A stretch of DNA of 44,233 bases, taken from the NCBI GenBank assembly GCA_029219925.1, contig JAQXUJ010000057.1:1-44233 (forward strand). Direction: 5' to 3'. The translations under genes were made by a program, and so were the position numbers. Below are positions 12,510 to 30,844 of this stretch, one piece after another. The stretch is from Clostridiales bacterium. GTDB taxonomy: Bacteria > Bacillota > Clostridia > UBA1381. Numbering within the stretch: position 1 is the stretch's first letter; every line of letters starts with the position of its first letter. A model generated the notes under the pieces. That model had not been told where the DNA came from and searched no databases. It saw nothing but the letters and a program-made list of their open reading frames with translations.

Positions 12510-14063
12510 ATGAAAAAACACCTTCTTGCATCAATAATTTTTGCGGCTGTGATTGCATTTAATTCGTTGGCCGCAGCGGCTCCGTCGGCGAGTCCCTCGG
12601 CAGCGCCCAAAACAGCGGCATCGGCGTCACCGAAAACTTCCGCATCACCGAAAATTTCCCCGTCGCCGACAGCTTCGGCAAAGCCCACATCATCACCAAA
12701 GGCATCCGCATCGCCCAAATCATCAACGGCGCCCTCTGCGTCACCGGCACCGGAGGCGACCGAGAAAAAATCAGAGTTCCCCGTACCGCGTGCCGATTCT
12801 GCCATAGTTATTGACGCAAGCTCCGGTGACGTTATATCTGCACTGAATGCCGATAAAAAAATGTATCCTGCCGGTCTTTCCAACATAATGACGGCTATTA
12901 TTGCTCTGGAAAACACCAACCTTGCCGACAGCTGCACCGTCACCGACGAGGCGCTGGCAGGCATAACCTATGATCAGCCGCAGCTTGGCATGAAGGTCGG
13001 GGAAAGCTATACCGTAGAACAGCTTTTACACGCAATTATATTAAACTCCTGCAATGATGCCTCAAATACCCTTGCCATATCAGTTTCGGGCAGCATAGAC
13101 GCATTTGTGCAGAAAATGAATGATAAGGCGGCGGAGCTTGGTCTTGCCGGCACGCACTTCGCAAATCCCTCCGGCTATCAAAACGAAAATCACTATACCA
13201 CCGCCTCCGATATGGCTTATCTTTCGCTGTACGCCATGAGCAACAGCACCTTTGCGCAGATTGCGGCAACGCAGAAATACGTATTTCCGCCCACGGCAAT
13301 GCGCAATACACAGAAAACCATATTAAGCACCAATCATCTTGTGAGCCGATACAAATATCCTTATCACTTTTACGCAAACGCCACAGGCATAAAGTCCGGA
13401 AACAGCAATGACGCCGGATACTGCCTTGCCGCGTCGGCAGTAAAGGGTAAGCTTAATATCATCAGTGTGGTTATGGGCTGCAAAAACACAAATGCAAACG
13501 AGGGAGCATATTCCTTTACCGACACCGCAGCTATTTTTGATTACGTTTTTGAAAACTATCAGTCGGTACTTCTTGCGCGCAAAGGCGATGTCTTATACGA
13601 TACAAAGGTTTCTGAAGCAAAAAATTCAACCCGCTTGGCGCTCACCGTTGAGGACGATGTTTACATCACCCTCAAAAACACCGCCGACCCGGAGGTTATC
13701 ACAAATGAAGTAAACATTGTGCAGGACACAAAAGCGCCCATTGCTCAGGGTGATTATTTCGGAACAATCACCTATTTCTACAACGGGAAACAGCTGAAAA
13801 CAATTAATCTTGTCGCCGCCAATGAAGTCAAGCGCGATTTAATATTGCATATAATGAACAGCATTATTCATTTTATCTTTAATCCGATTACGCTTATAAT
13901 AATTATTCTATTGCTGGCGATTTGGATTCGATTGCGCATAATCCGCAACCGTAAACGCCGCAAACGCCACAGAAAAATGGTTTCCTATTCCGGTAAAACC
14001 GGGATAAACTCCGACAGAAACAGCGTTTCGCGCAGCCGCGACGGATACCGCCGCAGAAGATAG
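12510..14063 (+). CDS. dacF: D-alanyl-D-alanine carboxypeptidase (DacF/PBP5 family) with Ala/Ser/Pro linker and C-terminal TM helix
   Basis: Peptidase_S11 family: SNIMTAIIALE region, NSCNDAS (SxN-like), KSGNSNDAGYCLAAS (KTG-like KSG); the linker (aa ~25-88) is almost entirely A/S/P/K. Confidence 0.9.
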   Translation: MKKHLLASIIFAAVIAFNSLAAAAPSASPSAAPKTAASASPKTSASPKISPSPTASAKPTSSPKASASPKSSTAPSASPAPEATEKKSEFPVPRADSAIVIDASSGDVISALNADKKMYPAGLSNIMTAIIALENTNLADSCTVTDEALAGITYDQPQLGMKVGESYTVEQLLHAIILNSCNDASNTLAISVSGSIDAFVQKMNDKAAELGLAGTHFANPSGYQNENHYTTASDMAYLSLYAMSNSTFAQIAATQKYVFPPTAMRNTQKTILSTNHLVSRYKYPYHFYANATGIKSGNSNDAGYCLAASAVKGKLNIISVVMGCKNTNANEGAYSFTDTAAIFDYVFENYQSVLLARKGDVLYDTKVSEAKNSTRLALTVEDDVYITLKNTADPEVITNEVNIVQDTKAPIAQGDYFGTITYFYNGKQLKTINLVAANEVKRDLILHIMNSIIHFIFNPITLIIIILLLAIWIRLRIIRNRKRRKRHRKMVSYSGKTGINSDRNSVSRSRDGYRRRR

Positions 14064-14068
14064 CTTTA

Positions 14069-14110
14069 AAAAAACTGAGGTTTTCCTCCTATGGAAAACC
14101 TCAGTTTTTT
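14069..14110. terminator. Bidirectional rho-independent terminator
   Basis: AAAAAACTGAGGTTTTCC-tcctat-GGAAAACCTCAGTTTTTT between convergent dacF and hydA. Confidence 0.93.
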
Positions 14111-14117
14111 AATAACT

Positions 14118-15851
14118 TTAGAACTTGCTTCTCTTTTTAAAAGTAGTATGCAGAAGCTCATGTGCCTTATGTGAGCACGGCTCTCCGAAATATTCGCTGT
14201 AAAGCTTTTGAATATACGGATTTTCGTGTGATTTTCTGATTGCGGAAGCCTCGTCCTCAGAATAAAGGGCCTTTGCGCGAAGCGCTTTGACATCAGTCAC
14301 TGCTTTTGTTCTGGAGTCTACAATCGGCTGACCGCCGCCGTGGATACATCCGCCCGGGCATGCCATGATTTCGATAAAGTCGTAATGCTCGCCCGCTTTA
14401 ACCTTTTCCAGTATGGTTCTTGCGTTCTTTGTTCCGTGAGCAACTGCGATATGGACATCCTTGCCGGCAATTTTTAATGTTGCCTCCTTAACGCCCTCAA
14501 GACCTCTTACCTCTGTTATATTAATATTGTCAAGGGGTTTGCCCTCAAGCTTTTCATATACGGTACGGATAGCCGCTTCCATAACACCGCCTGTTGTACC
14601 GAAGATAACTCCCGCACCGGTCGCCATACCGAAGGGCTGGTCGAACTCTTCATCGGGCAGCGACGCAAAATCGATACCTGCCTGCTTAATCATTCTCGCA
14701 AGCTCTCTTGTCGTCAGGGACGCATCAATGTCCAGGCTGCCGCTGGAGGACAGCTCCGGACGGCTTGCCTCATACTTCTTCGATGTACACGGCATGATTG
14801 CAACCGAGTATATGTCCTTCTTGTCAATACCTGTCTTCTCGGCATAGTACGACTTAATCACCGCACCGAACATCTCCATGGGCGACTTTGCCGTAGAGAG
14901 ATTATCGGTAAATTCCGGATAGTAATGCTCGCAGAACTTAACCCAGCCCGGCGAACAGGAAGTAATAATCGGAAGTCTTTCCTGCTTTGTAAATCTCTCA
15001 ATAAATTCCGTACCCTCTTCCATAATGGTCAGGTCGGCAGCGGTATCGGTATCAAACACCTTGTCGAATCCCAGACGGCGAAGGGCAGCAACCATTTTTC
15101 CGGTTACCGGTGTGCCTATAGGCAGACCGAATTCTTCGCCAAGCGCCGCACGTACAGCCGGTGCTGTCTGAACAACAACATGCTTTTCGGTATTGTATAT
15201 AGCTTCCATAACCTGCGGAATTGACGTCTTTTCATACAAAGCGCCTACAGGACACGCTACTATACACTGTCCGCAGTATACGCATGCAACATCGGACATG
15301 GGCTGTTCAAATGCTGCGCGAACCTCGGTAGCAAAGCCTCTGTTTACCGCTGAAATAACCGAAATATCCTGATTATCACAGGCAGCTATACATCTTCTGC
15401 ACAGCACGCACTTATTATTATCTCTTACAAGGGATGTTGACGAATTATCAATCTCATGCTGTATATTTTCGCCCTCATATCTAAGACCGTCCACACCCAG
15501 CTCGTCCGCAAGAGTCTGAAGCTCACAATTTCTGCTTCTGATGCAGGTAAGACACTTCTTTTCATGATTGGACAGAATAAGCTCAAGGGTAGCACGACGT
15601 GCCTTTCTTACCTTTTCGGTATTTGTAAATACTTCAATCCCCTCTGCAACCGGGTATACGCATGCCGCCTGCAGCGCTTTTGCGCCCTTAACCTCAACAA
15701 GGCACATTCTGCAAGCGCCGATCTGGTTTAAATCCTTTAGGTAACATAAGGTAGGAATGTTGATACCAACCTCACGCGCTGCGTCAAGAATAGTGTAGCC
15801 CTCAGGTACGCTTATGTCCTGACCGTTTATTTTTAAGTTTACCATCTTCAT
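14118..15851 (-). CDS. hydA: NAD(P)-linked [FeFe] hydrogenase catalytic subunit (HydA/HndD type)
   Basis: N-terminal 2Fe-2S, CxxCxxxxxC His-type and 2[4Fe-4S] domains; H-cluster motifs ITSCSPGWVKF, MPCTSKKYEASRPEL, EIMACPGGCIHGGGQ; C-terminal small-subunit domain. Confidence 0.96.
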   Translation of the reverse strand: MKMVNLKINGQDISVPEGYTILDAAREVGINIPTLCYLKDLNQIGACRMCLVEVKGAKALQAACVYPVAEGIEVFTNTEKVRKARRATLELILSNHEKKCLTCIRSRNCELQTLADELGVDGLRYEGENIQHEIDNSSTSLVRDNNKCVLCRRCIAACDNQDISVISAVNRGFATEVRAAFEQPMSDVACVYCGQCIVACPVGALYEKTSIPQVMEAIYNTEKHVVVQTAPAVRAALGEEFGLPIGTPVTGKMVAALRRLGFDKVFDTDTAADLTIMEEGTEFIERFTKQERLPIITSCSPGWVKFCEHYYPEFTDNLSTAKSPMEMFGAVIKSYYAEKTGIDKKDIYSVAIMPCTSKKYEASRPELSSSGSLDIDASLTTRELARMIKQAGIDFASLPDEEFDQPFGMATGAGVIFGTTGGVMEAAIRTVYEKLEGKPLDNINITEVRGLEGVKEATLKIAGKDVHIAVAHGTKNARTILEKVKAGEHYDFIEIMACPGGCIHGGGQPIVDSRTKAVTDVKALRAKALYSEDEASAIRKSHENPYIQKLYSEYFGEPCSHKAHELLHTTFKKRSKF

Positions 15852-23841: not shown

Positions 23842-24600
23842 TTACAAATATTTAAAAACATCGGCTTCCTTTGATTTTACCACTTCCAGTCCCTTACCTT
23901 CAAGAAGCTTTCCAAAAATATCGGTTACAACCGCCTCGGTAGGATAGTGTCCTGCGTCCAGAACGCAGATTCCCGAATGTACCGCATTAAGCATTTCGTG
24001 ATACTTCATATCTGCGGTCAGCATAACGTCCGCACCCTTGGACAGCGCCCGGGGAATACTGTCCGCACACGCTCCCGAACCTACGGCTACCCTGCGTACG
24101 AGCCTCGTCAAGTCCCCTCCGGCACGGACATGAGGTGTTCTTAGCTTCCTTTTTACCTCCTCCGCAAAATCTGCAAGAGTTACCGCTTTCTTTATATTGC
24201 CGATTCTTCCCAGACCGTTTTCATCAAGATATTCCACCTCCGACAATTCAAAAAGCGCTGCCAGATATGTGTTTAATCCTCTGACACCCACATCGCAGTT
24301 TGTGTGCGCTGCATACACGCATATGCGGTTTTCAACCAGATCAAGCAGCATTTTTCCCTCTTCACTTTCATCGGTTATGCGTTTTGTACCCCCAAACAAA
24401 ATCGGGTGATGCGCCAGTATCAGCTCTGCGCCGCATGCCTTCGCCTCCTCTGCCGTTTCCGGCGTAACGTCAAGAGCAACAAGCACCTTGCTTATCTCTG
24501 CGTCATGCCGTCCCAGCAAAAGGCCCACATTATCCCATTCATATGCTGTTTCCGGAGGAAATTCTTTTTCAATTATTTTCTCTATTTCAAAAACTCTCAT
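23842..24600 (-). CDS. Nif3-like dinuclear metal centre protein (YqfO/DUF34)
   Basis: FPPETAYEWDNVGLLLGR, ILAHHPILFGG, YAAHTNCDVGVRGLNTYLA, DAGHYPTEA. Confidence 0.95.
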   Translation of the reverse strand: MRVFEIEKIIEKEFPPETAYEWDNVGLLLGRHDAEISKVLVALDVTPETAEEAKACGAELILAHHPILFGGTKRITDESEEGKMLLDLVENRICVYAAHTNCDVGVRGLNTYLAALFELSEVEYLDENGLGRIGNIKKAVTLADFAEEVKRKLRTPHVRAGGDLTRLVRRVAVGSGACADSIPRALSKGADVMLTADMKYHEMLNAVHSGICVLDAGHYPTEAVVTDIFGKLLEGKGLEVVKSKEADVFKYL

Positions 24601-25258
24601 TCTCTAAGCTCCTTTCAATGGCAATCGTATCGTCAAGCAGCAATTTTATCCGTGCCGCACCCGTTCCATCGCCGCCCGCCGAAAGACCCTTATATATTTT
24701 CTCAAACTCTCGTCTTTTTTTTTCAACAAGCATCCTAAAAAGCGAGTTACCGTACAAAAGCGGCGGCAGATGAAGGTCAATTTCCTTTTTATATTGATTT
24801 GGCTCGCCGCTTCTGACAACAAAAAGATTGTAAATTTTATGTCCCTCCGCCGCCAAATCCTCATATTCTATGCAAAATCCGTTTTCCCTCAGGAAATTTC
24901 GCAGCTCATACTGGGAATTCATAGGCTGTAGAAGCAGAAGGGCGTGGCGTGCTATTTCAAGGTCAGCGGAAATGATATTTTGAATCAGCTCTCCGCCCAT
25001 ACCGGCAATAATTATGCAGTCCGCCTCTCCCGGCAGCAGAGGCTCAAGCCCTGCACCCAATCTCAAGCTTATATTTGCACCATACTTTTCGGCATTTTTC
25101 TGCGCCGCCCCCAGGGGTCCCTCATTTATATCCGTAGCAATTACCTTCATGCCCTTTTCGGCAAGCTTTATCGGAATATATCCGTGGTCGGTTCCTATAT
25201 CTGCCGCAGCATTCCCCGTCACATGACGTAAAATCATTTCAAGTCGCGGTGTTATCAT
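24587..25258 (-). CDS. trmK: tRNA (adenine(22)-N(1))-methyltransferase
   Basis: AADIGTDHGYIPIKLAEKG, DCIIIAGMGGELIQNII, LLLQPMNSQYELRNFL; paired with nif3 as in many Firmicutes. Confidence 0.94.
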   Translation of the reverse strand: MITPRLEMILRHVTGNAAADIGTDHGYIPIKLAEKGMKVIATDINEGPLGAAQKNAEKYGANISLRLGAGLEPLLPGEADCIIIAGMGGELIQNIISADLEIARHALLLLQPMNSQYELRNFLRENGFCIEYEDLAAEGHKIYNLFVVRSGEPNQYKKEIDLHLPPLLYGNSLFRMLVEKKRREFEKIYKGLSAGGDGTGAARIKLLLDDTIAIERSLENESF

Positions 25259-25700
25259 AAAAAAATCCTTTCATGCATAAAAATTCAGTTATACAACTTT
25301 TTGTCAACAGGTGTGGATAACTTTTCACCTCAGAAAAATGGCATAAAACAGTGATTTTTTTGTTATATAAACAAATATTTTTGCGTAAATGTGAAAAAGA
25401 AACCCTAAACTGTTGAAAAATGTCCATAAATTTTTGTAAACTTGTCCCAATTTCCAACTTTTTAGGGTTCAAGCCATTTCCAAATCCCCTTGACCTGATG
25501 GATAACTCTGTGGATAAGGTGGATAACCTTGCAAAATCCACATAAACAGCTTGTTTTGCTGTTAATAACCTTTTCTGACAGTGTGGATAACTCTATACAT
25601 TAGTTTACATAATATCTTTATATATACGGTATTTATTTGCATAAATTTTCTATGGAAATCTACAGAAAAACGGGACATAACGCCCCGCTCTGTTTTATTT
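25259..25700. other. Candidate chromosomal replication origin (oriC-like DnaA-box cluster)
   Basis: AT-rich 440-nt gap; three exact TGTGGATAA boxes (25312-25320, 25509-25517, 25582-25590), one 1-mismatch (25518-25526 GGTGGATAA), two 2-mismatch (25497-25505, 25534-25542). Confidence 0.65.
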
Positions 25701-26966
25701 CTATTTAATAATCTCGGTACCCATATACTGAACCAGCGCATCCGGTACGGTTACAGTTCCGTCGGCATTCTGATAATTTTCCAGAATAGCCGCAACCGTT
25801 CTTCCCACGGCAAGCCCCGACCCGTTCAGCGTATGCACAAACTGCGCCTTATCCTTCGGGCTGTCCTTAAAGCGGATATTAGCGCGCCTTGCCTGGTAGT
25901 CCTCAAAATTCGAGCAGGATGAAATCTCAACATATCTTCCGTAGCTGGGCATCCATACCTCAATATCGTAGGTGCAAGCGGAGGAGAAGCCCAAATCACC
26001 GGTCGACAAGCAGACAACCCTGTACGGAATATTAAGTCCCTGCAAAAGCTTCTCCGCATCATTTGTGAGGGATTCCAGCTCGTTGTAAGAGTCTTCCGGT
26101 CTTGCAAATTTTACCAGCTCTACCTTGTTGAACTGATGCTGTCTTATAAGACCTCTTGTATCACGTCCTGCCGAGCCGGCCTCTGCGCGGAAGCATGCTG
26201 AATATGCGCAATATTTAATAGGAAGCTTTGTTCCGTCAAGAATTTCGTCCCTGTGAAGATTAGTAACAGGTACCTCCGCCGTAGGAATAAGGAAGTATCC
26301 GTTGTTCGCCACTTTAAATGCGTCCTCTTCGAATTTGGGCAGCTGACCGGTTCCGGTCATGGACGCCCTGTTCACCATGTAGGGTGGGAATATTTCTGTA
26401 TAACCACTGGCAGTGTGAGTATTCAGGAAATATTGAATTACGCTGCGTTCAAGACGCGCACCCAAGCCTTTATATACGGTAAAGCGTGTTCCGGAAATCT
26501 TTGCGCCGCGGTCAAAATCCAGAATGTCAAGGTCAGTGCCTATATCCCAGTGCGCCTTTGCCTCAAAATCAAACTTTCTCGGCTCGGACCATCTTCTTAC
26601 TTCAACGTTCTGGGAATCATCAACTCCGACAGGTGATTTAGCCGACGGAATATTCGGTATTCGCAGCATGAAATCCCTAAGCTCACCGTCAATAGCGGAA
26701 ACCTGTGCGTCCAGCTCCTTTATTTCTCCCGAAAGCTCCTTCATTTCGGCAAATACGGTATCTGTATTTTCTCCCGCCTTTTTCATTGCAGGAATCTGCT
26801 TTGAAATCTCATTTTGTTTCGCCTTCATCTGCTCAACTCTGCCCAAAAGGTCGCGACGCTTTGCGTCCAGCTCGATTGCCGGCGTAATATCAAGATCGTT
26901 ATTACGGTTTTTCAACGCCTCTTTTATTTTTTCAGGTTCTGTTCTTAAAATCTTGATGTCTAACAT
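25701..26966 (-). CDS. serS: Seryl-tRNA synthetase
   Basis: [22 protein letters not shown]; class II motifs ([45 protein letters not shown]). Confidence 0.98.
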
Positions 26967-27429: not shown

Positions 27430-28278
27430 TTACTGCCTCCTTCCGATAAGCTCCAAAATCCGCTCAAGATCCCGGTTTCCGTAGTACTCAATCTCAATTT
27501 TCCCTTTTTTTCCGGTCCCCGAAAGCTTTACCTTGGTACCGAGATACTGCTCAAGTCCTTTTGATATGCGTTCCAACTCAAGGCGATAGGCAGTATTCTT
27601 CTGTTTATCGGATTTTGGCGAAGGAGTTTTTGCCAAATCCTTTGCCAAAAGCTCTGCCTGGCGTACATTCAAACCCTCCTGGATTATCCTGTTTACAAAA
27701 AATTCCCGCACAACTCCCTCCGGGACAGAAAGCGCACATCTTGCGTGTCCCTCGGTAATCTCTTCCGAAATAAGCTTGTCCCGGGTAAAATCATCCAGTG
27801 CCAGAAGTCTGACGGAATTAGCAATTGCGCTGCGACTTTTTCCCAGTCTTGCGCTGATTTCCTCCTGCGTCAGGTTATACTCGTCCATAAGGGAACGGTA
27901 TCCCATCGCCTCCTCAATAGGATTGAGGTCCTCCCGCTGCAAATTTTCTATCAGCGCAACCTCCTTAACCGCCAAATCATCGTAATCCTTAACCAATGCC
28001 GGTATTTTTTTGAGTCCCGCCAGCTTTGCCGCTCTCCAGCGGCGTTCGCCCGCCACTATAACGTAGCCGTCATCGGTTTTACGTACCACAATGGGCTGAA
28101 TAAGTCCATGTTCCTTCACTGAATCCGCAAGTACCCTAAGCTTTTCCTCGTCAAAAGCCTTTCTCGGTTGATTTTTGTTGGGCATTACCTCAGTAAGCTT
28201 GAGTTCATGTACTCCCGAATCGGTATTTTCCTCAAAAAACAACGCGTCAAGTCCTTTTCCCAAGCCCTTTTTAGCCAT
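27430..28278 (-). CDS. parB: Chromosome-partitioning protein ParB/Spo0J
   Basis: MAKKGLGKGLDALF, NKNQPRKAF, VAGERRWRAAKLAG, EDLNPIEEA, RLGKSRSAIANSVRLLAL HTH. Confidence 0.97.
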   Translation of the reverse strand: MAKKGLGKGLDALFFEENTDSGVHELKLTEVMPNKNQPRKAFDEEKLRVLADSVKEHGLIQPIVVRKTDDGYVIVAGERRWRAAKLAGLKKIPALVKDYDDLAVKEVALIENLQREDLNPIEEAMGYRSLMDEYNLTQEEISARLGKSRSAIANSVRLLALDDFTRDKLISEEITEGHARCALSVPEGVVREFFVNRIIQEGLNVRQAELLAKDLAKTPSPKSDKQKNTAYRLELERISKGLEQYLGTKVKLSGTGKKGKIEIEYYGNRDLERILELIGRRQ

Positions 28279-29050
28279 TTAACCACTCCTTATTCTTCGC
28301 AATAATGTCGCGCGAAAGTGCAAAATACGCCTCCGCACCCTTTGAAGTTATATCATATTTTATTATCGGCTGACCATAGCTGGGAGCCTCGGAAATCCTC
28401 ACATTCCGCGGAATAGGCGTTTTGAAAACCTTGTCCGGAAAGTGCTTTGTAACCTCATCCAACACCTGCTGAGAAAGATTTGTTCTGCTGTCATACATGG
28501 TCGCGACAATTCCCTCAATCTCCAGCCGTGTATTAAGAGATTTTTTTATCGTTTTCACAGAGCCTACAAGCTGTGAAAGCCCTTCAAGCGCATAATATTC
28601 ACACTGAATGGGAATTAACAGGCTGTCCGCCGCAGTCATAATATTAATAGTAAGCATTCCCAGCGACGGCGGAGAATCAATAATTACAAAATCGTAGCCG
28701 TCCTTTACCGTTTTCAGGGCATTTTCGAGAAAATGCTCGCGCTTTTCCTGACCGGCAAGCTCCACCTCCGCCGCCGAAAGCTCGGCACGGGACGGAATAA
28801 TAGATAAGCCACGAATGTTTGTCCTTATAACCGCCTCGGGAGTCTTCGCGCTGTCCGCAAGGCAGTCATATATAGATAAATCGACGCTGTCCTTCCGGAC
28901 GCCCAGTCCCGATGTGGCGTTTCCCTGGGGATCGCAGTCCGCAACAAGAACATTTTTGCCCTTATATGCAAGGCATGCCGCCAGATTGACCGCCGTTGTC
29001 GTCTTTCCGACGCCGCCCTTCTGGTTAGTTACCGCAATAATTTTTCCCAT
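28271..29050 (-). CDS. parA: Chromosome-partitioning ATPase ParA/Soj
   Basis: KGGVGKTTTAVNLAACLA Walker A, DCDPQGNATSGLG, IIDSPPSLGMLTIN. Confidence 0.97.
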   Translation of the reverse strand: MGKIIAVTNQKGGVGKTTTAVNLAACLAYKGKNVLVADCDPQGNATSGLGVRKDSVDLSIYDCLADSAKTPEAVIRTNIRGLSIIPSRAELSAAEVELAGQEKREHFLENALKTVKDGYDFVIIDSPPSLGMLTINIMTAADSLLIPIQCEYYALEGLSQLVGSVKTIKKSLNTRLEIEGIVATMYDSRTNLSQQVLDEVTKHFPDKVFKTPIPRNVRISEAPSYGQPIIKYDITSKGAEAYFALSRDIIAKNKEWLNG

Positions 29051-29111: not shown

Positions 29112-29127
29112 TGTTTCACATGAAACA
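29112..29127. promoter_or_regulatory. parS-like site 1
   Basis: TGTTTCACATGAAACA, one mismatch to parS TGTTTCACGTGAAACA; extended arms AAATGTTTCA-CA-TGAAACATTT. Confidence 0.85.
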
Positions 29128-30828: not shown

Positions 30829-30844
30829 AGTTTCACGTGAAACA
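30829..30844. promoter_or_regulatory. parS-like site 2
   Basis: aGTTTCACGTGAAACa with a perfect 14-nt palindrome GTTTCACGTGAAAC, immediately 3' of the gerKA stop. Confidence 0.88.

Follow-up and report, generated by a model that had tools for sequence, protein, structure and literature searches.

A conserved DnaA-box cluster between trmK and serS in a Clostridiales bacterium: a probable accessory element near the replication origin

Introduction

DnaA-box clusters that lie outside oriC, or that form one part of it, are known from several bacteria. In the account of Okumura et al. (2012) given in PMC5295017, Bacillus subtilis carries six DnaA-box clusters (DBCs) outside oriC, and the removal of all six leads to early initiation. 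At the datA locus of Escherichia coli, IHF is required as a further protein bound to the DNA (PMC5295017). Bipartite origins are found in the Firmicutes, namely incA/incB with incC in B. subtilis and oriC1 with oriC2 in Clostridioides difficile (PMC7561715, PMC6669920), and the published unwinding module runs from DnaA boxes through DnaA-trios to AT-rich DNA (PMC6669920, PMC7561715).

The locus described here, the gap between trmK and serS of a Clostridiales bacterium, resembles the B. subtilis DBCs, as far as these are set out in the source cited, in being a group of intergenic DnaA boxes outside oriC, in a Firmicute, of which there is more than one per genome. It differs from them in its phased array, its inverted TATGTAAAC motif and its positions at trmK-serS and glyS. 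Compared by arrangement, it is also like datA and DARS1/DARS2 of E. coli, which are non-coding DnaA-box clusters away from oriC, and a putative partner motif here would parallel the part of IHF at datA, although the present cluster lies near the origin. With the bipartite oriC it shares a box-rich subregion without trios, as in oriC1, and an unwinding module kept at dnaA-dnaN, as in oriC2 (PMC7561715, PMC6669920); however, the box-rich subregion is here kilobases from dnaA, at trmK.

Results

DnaA boxes of the trmK-serS gap

The original prediction, made on the window (the whole stretch of 44,233 nucleotides analysed, contig C57), named trmK, serS, parA and parB as neighbours of a candidate origin with three exact DnaA boxes, one single-mismatch box and two weaker ones, five of the six in one orientation. 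All of these were found at the predicted places, five boxes being on the minus strand and TTGTCAACA alone on the plus strand:

24587..25258, minus strand: trmK, tRNA (adenine-N1) methyltransferase (PF04816)
25259..25700, no strand: trmK-serS intergenic gap with the DnaA-box cluster, 442 bp, 69% AT
25301..25309, plus strand: weak opposed box TTGTCAACA beside box 4; a better box is often there in relatives
25312..25320, minus strand: DnaA box 4, exact, trmK-proximal
25497..25505, minus strand: weak box TTATCCATC, third in the tandem; TTATCC core invariant in the genus alignment
25509..25517, minus strand: DnaA box 3, exact, abutting box 2
25518..25526, minus strand: DnaA box 2, TTATCCACC, one mismatch, first in a tandem of three boxes
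25582..25590, minus strand: DnaA box 1, exact TTATCCACA, 21 bp to the left TATGTAAAC motif
25701..26966, minus strand: serS, serine--tRNA ligase, with the 3' end next to the gap
27430..28278, minus strand: parB
28271..29050, minus strand: parA
29112..29127, no strand: parS-like site TGTTTCACATGAAACA, in the parA-gerA gap
30829..30844, no strand: parS-like site AGTTTCACGTGAAACA, after gerA

The gap thus holds a cluster of DnaA boxes, one of the marks of a bacterial oriC, and an AT-rich, easily melted stretch lies beside box 1. The 9-bp inverted repeat AACCCTAAA/TTTAGGGTT that had also been predicted is present at 25401-25409/25461-25469, but the genus alignment shows no conservation of it even within the genus; it is therefore probably incidental and was dropped as part of the element. 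A search of 22-32 kb against Rfam found no RNA element. It should also be noted that the two parS-like sites flank gerA, each with one mismatch from the consensus, and that a third is located at G000:C178:3988.

In first-order Markov simulations the mean number of exact boxes per gap was 0.008, and three occurred in none of 3000. When one mismatch is allowed, the box count of the full 44 kb window is only mildly raised (17 against 10 expected); the signal lies in the clustering. The assembly (1.88 Mb, 280 contigs) contains 31 exact copies of TTATCCACA, and no second 400-bp stretch with three exact boxes was found elsewhere in it; the trmK-serS gap is the best box cluster of the genome. In G008, a relative listed as 97% complete, a triple of this kind occurs solely at the orthologous place, where the spacings are 197 and 74 bp.

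Conservation across relatives

The 3' region of serS and the 5' region of trmK were compared across relatives; among members of the order that are at least 95% complete, the least fragmented is in about 30 contigs. This comparison, proposed with the original prediction, found the cluster strongly conserved across the family, in which clusters with at least three boxes amount to 35 distinct sequences with fixed spacings. Lachnospiraceae bacterium MD329 (L058) is among the genomes in which it is present. Within the genus, the alignment retains spacings of about 73 and 197 bp from box to box, the distance from box 4 to box 3 being 197 bp in the window, G001, G007 and G008 and 196-198 bp in the other aligned members. 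Besides the box tandem, the same alignment has two conserved blocks, one of them TTATGTAAAC, which is invariant and lies close to box 1, and the other surrounding box 4. In genomes that have serS and trmK apart (G008, G016, G022, G063 and G065), the cluster remains upstream of trmK. No cluster was detected at trmK, serS or dnaA in two genomes of genus g11 (G018 and G031; L195, L197, L222-L224), so the element is not universal. In g11, trmK lies closely behind another gene. The trmK-serS cluster is a real, evolutionarily conserved DnaA-box element and a predicted DnaA docking site.

The TATGTAAAC motif and the architecture of the array

Two inverted copies of a further motif were located in the gap of the window:

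25435..25441, minus strand: right motif GTTTACA, an inverted copy of the left motif, 170 bp away
25603..25612, minus strand: left motif TTATGTAAAC, in an AT-rich stretch among the weakest duplexes of the window

Either TATGTAAAC or the inverted GTTTACA(TA), or both, occurred in all 38 rows of box-bearing gaps, some of these being duplicate records. With one mismatch allowed, 31 of the 35 distinct clusters carried both motifs in opposite orientation, at a distance of 169-173 or 176-183 bp (in the second class mostly 181-183), the two classes differing by about one helical turn. The box offsets repeat at close to 11 bp (mean vector 0.59-0.61), a value that is descriptive because the sequences are related. 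A further protein bound inside the box array is a trait of datA and DARS, and the conserved inverted motif is a candidate site for such a partner.

The element aligns in reverse in genus g9, with 73-76 bits against 28-29 forward in G035 and G029 and more weakly in G016 (55 against 42 bits). The positions of serS and trmK are unchanged in G035 and G029 although the element, its internal order retained, is flipped, so that it is not merely a promoter of fixed orientation. Eleven copies of TTATGTAAAC are present in the whole assembly, one in the trmK-serS gap and two in a cluster between birA and glyS. No bacterial replication site matching TATGTAAAC was found among the papers listed by a literature search. 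New here are this motif with its usual inverted copy, the flipped unit in one genus and the related cluster upstream of glyS.

The latter is a second conserved DnaA-box cluster, at L227:3865-4295 (G000:C24, about 13864-14294), and carries two TTATGTAAAC/GTTTACATAA motifs. Of 19 family genomes, 13 have three or more boxes (each with no more than one mismatch) upstream of glyS, and GTTTACATA is present in 12 of these 13 clusters. The glyS cluster is on a different contig from dnaA. The presence of a second cluster sharing the motif fits a class of control elements and not a single origin.

The dnaA-dnaN locus

That dnaA lies outside the window, as originally predicted, was borne out: dnaA-dnaN was located beside eno and hemZ on another contig of the same assembly (C149, 35,868 bp), at least 31 kb from the trmK-serS gap if the contigs are sound. 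In relatives with both sites on one contig these are about 3-32 kb apart, with dnaA on either side and in either orientation. The upstream half of a bipartite oriC adjoins dnaA on the side away from dnaN, which the cluster does not.

The dnaA-dnaN gap of this genome has a DnaA-trio tract followed by AT-rich DNA and reads ...TTACTACTATATACTACTAAAAATATATTATATATA, with a like layout in most relatives, e.g., TTACTACTATTATTACTACTA in G007. No DnaA-trio tract was found in any box-bearing trmK-serS gap examined, where the AT-rich side is 5' of the box, opposite to the box-trio-AT order at dnaA-dnaN; the trio beside a box and followed by an AT-rich stretch that marks an oriC is thus absent from these gaps. 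Strong boxes are few in the dnaA-dnaN gap, those of this genome being mostly degenerate, and something else may therefore have to supply DnaA.

Almost no boxes are present in the 600 bp upstream of dnaA in family f1, the family of this genome, in which the strong cluster is at trmK, while outgroup families of the same order keep a box cluster there (G039 of f4 and G038 of f3). In family f2 (L046, L047 and L051) dnaA is separated from dnaN, and boxes, trio and AT-rich region lie upstream of dnaN behind other genes, giving an oriC-dnaN arrangement without dnaA. Taken with the outgroups and f1, this suggests that the order has rearranged its origin parts repeatedly. Two different dnaA genes, one with boxes upstream, were observed in G034 (L189 and L210), probably owing to a contaminating contig. 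The rpmH gene, which shares a contig with dnaA in G000, G004 and G007, was considered as the home of another oriC1 and rejected, as 2-kb profiles of G004 and G007 showed no box cluster there.

GC skew

Both sites are present on 12 contigs of relatives, and in 11 of these (the exception being G007) the skew of the intervening stretch agrees with an origin at dnaA-dnaN. A step at dnaA-dnaN also explains more of the variance than one at the cluster in 11 of the 12 (the exception being G005), R2 being, for example, 0.54 for dnaA-dnaN and 0.05 for the cluster in G015, and 0.47 and 0.16, respectively, in G030. As the contigs are related, several end near one site and gene orientation adds to the skew, this evidence is good but not final. 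Within the window, the switch in both skew and gene polarity comes at about 29.1 kb, a distance of 3.5 kb from the cluster, and this contig alone cannot separate the two sites; the switch expected at an oriC does not fall on the trmK-serS gap. Fourfold-site skew per gene was too noisy to tell whether serS-parAB are on the lagging strand. Of the two observations on which the original prediction was to be judged, the skew points away to dnaA-dnaN; conservation of the cluster, on the other hand, is strong, and it has more strong boxes than the dnaA locus.

Discussion

It is considered probable that the trmK-serS gap holds an origin-proximal accessory DnaA-box cluster of the DBC or datA kind, a self-contained element of about 300 bp, and that the chromosome is unwound elsewhere. 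Several boxes in an intergenic region outside oriC, as in the DBCs, are present here if oriC lies at dnaA-dnaN, as seems likely. The original prediction had offered either an accessory DnaA-binding cluster or a dnaA-displaced origin, and it is the former that is supported by the conservation, the skew and the trios at dnaA-dnaN but not in the gap. DnaA binding, a partner protein and titration or timing control are predictions from these patterns. DnaA on the helically phased box array, with a probable partner at the inverted TATGTAAAC/GTTTACA(TA) sites, would form one nucleoprotein complex. This complex may bind DnaA near the origin, titrating or modifying it, and so tune the timing of initiation, and could perhaps also affect the adjacent trmK promoter. 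Unwinding itself would take place between dnaA and dnaN, at the DnaA-trio/AT-rich module. Points against this reading are the small number of strong boxes at dnaA-dnaN, the switch of skew and polarity 3.5 kb from the cluster in the window, and the easily melted stretch beside box 1.

The other half of the original prediction, a true displaced oriC at which DnaA unwinds the gap and bidirectional replication begins, is judged very unlikely. In its favour, no other box cluster of the genome is as good, the element is conserved, self-contained and not tied to one orientation, a weak AT-rich duplex lies beside box 1, and parA, parB and parS-like sites are nearby. However, the lack of DnaA-trios in every box-bearing gap, an AT-rich side 5' of the box in reverse of the dnaA-dnaN order, the skew step at dnaA-dnaN (favoured in 11 of 12 contigs) and the absence of the cluster from g11 all speak against it, and serS, parB and parA would all be head-on to replication. 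There is similarly little probability that the gap is a transcriptional control region, in which DnaA would regulate the transcription of trmK-nif3 (and, at the second locus, of glyS) and any replication control would be incidental. The cluster remains 5' of trmK where serS is elsewhere, about 60 bp separate box 4 from the trmK start downstream in the genus, and the second cluster is 5' of glyS. Against this, the element of g9 faces the other way with respect to trmK without a change in its internal order, a search for a sigma-70-type promoter for trmK on the minus strand gave no match, and a long phased multi-box array exceeds the needs of a simple repressor site.

Somewhat less remote, though still doubtful, is a split bipartite origin, in which the cluster is the former upstream half (oriC1 or incA-incB) of the Firmicute origin that has moved away from dnaA but continues to supply the unwinding half, between dnaA and dnaN, with DnaA from kilobases away. 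The near absence of boxes upstream of dnaA in f1, a place at which the outgroup genomes G039 and G038 keep a cluster, is in its favour, as is a strongest cluster about 3-32 kb from dnaA in every relative with both on one contig; unwinding in C. difficile needs both halves (PMC7561715). However, distance and orientation vary widely (3-32 kb on either side, and at least 31 kb here), which would make looping in cis hard. The boxes lost upstream of dnaA and those gained at trmK may moreover represent one event, which weakens the correlation. The variable distance, together with the similar element at glyS on a contig other than that of dnaA and the absence of any cluster at trmK, serS or dnaA in G018 and G031, leads us to lean to an independent control cluster over a detached half. 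A bipartite origin with a loose DnaA-loading half is likewise considered unlikely. In it the box array of this family, as a phased complex with a novel partner protein, would still be needed to load DnaA on the trios, although its distance from the unwinding site ranges from 3 to more than 30 kb and its side and orientation vary.

For the independent control cluster that is preferred here, the wider setting is that, to our knowledge, the control of DnaA in Firmicutes without the datA/DARS/Hda tools of E. coli is still unsettled. Searches for box clusters in genomes as fragmented as these would name the trmK-serS gap as oriC, against the indication of dnaA-dnaN by skew and trios, and this should be taken as a warning. 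With its compact form, family-wide occurrence, regular phasing, candidate partner site and second locus, the element is a testable candidate for a DnaA control centre.
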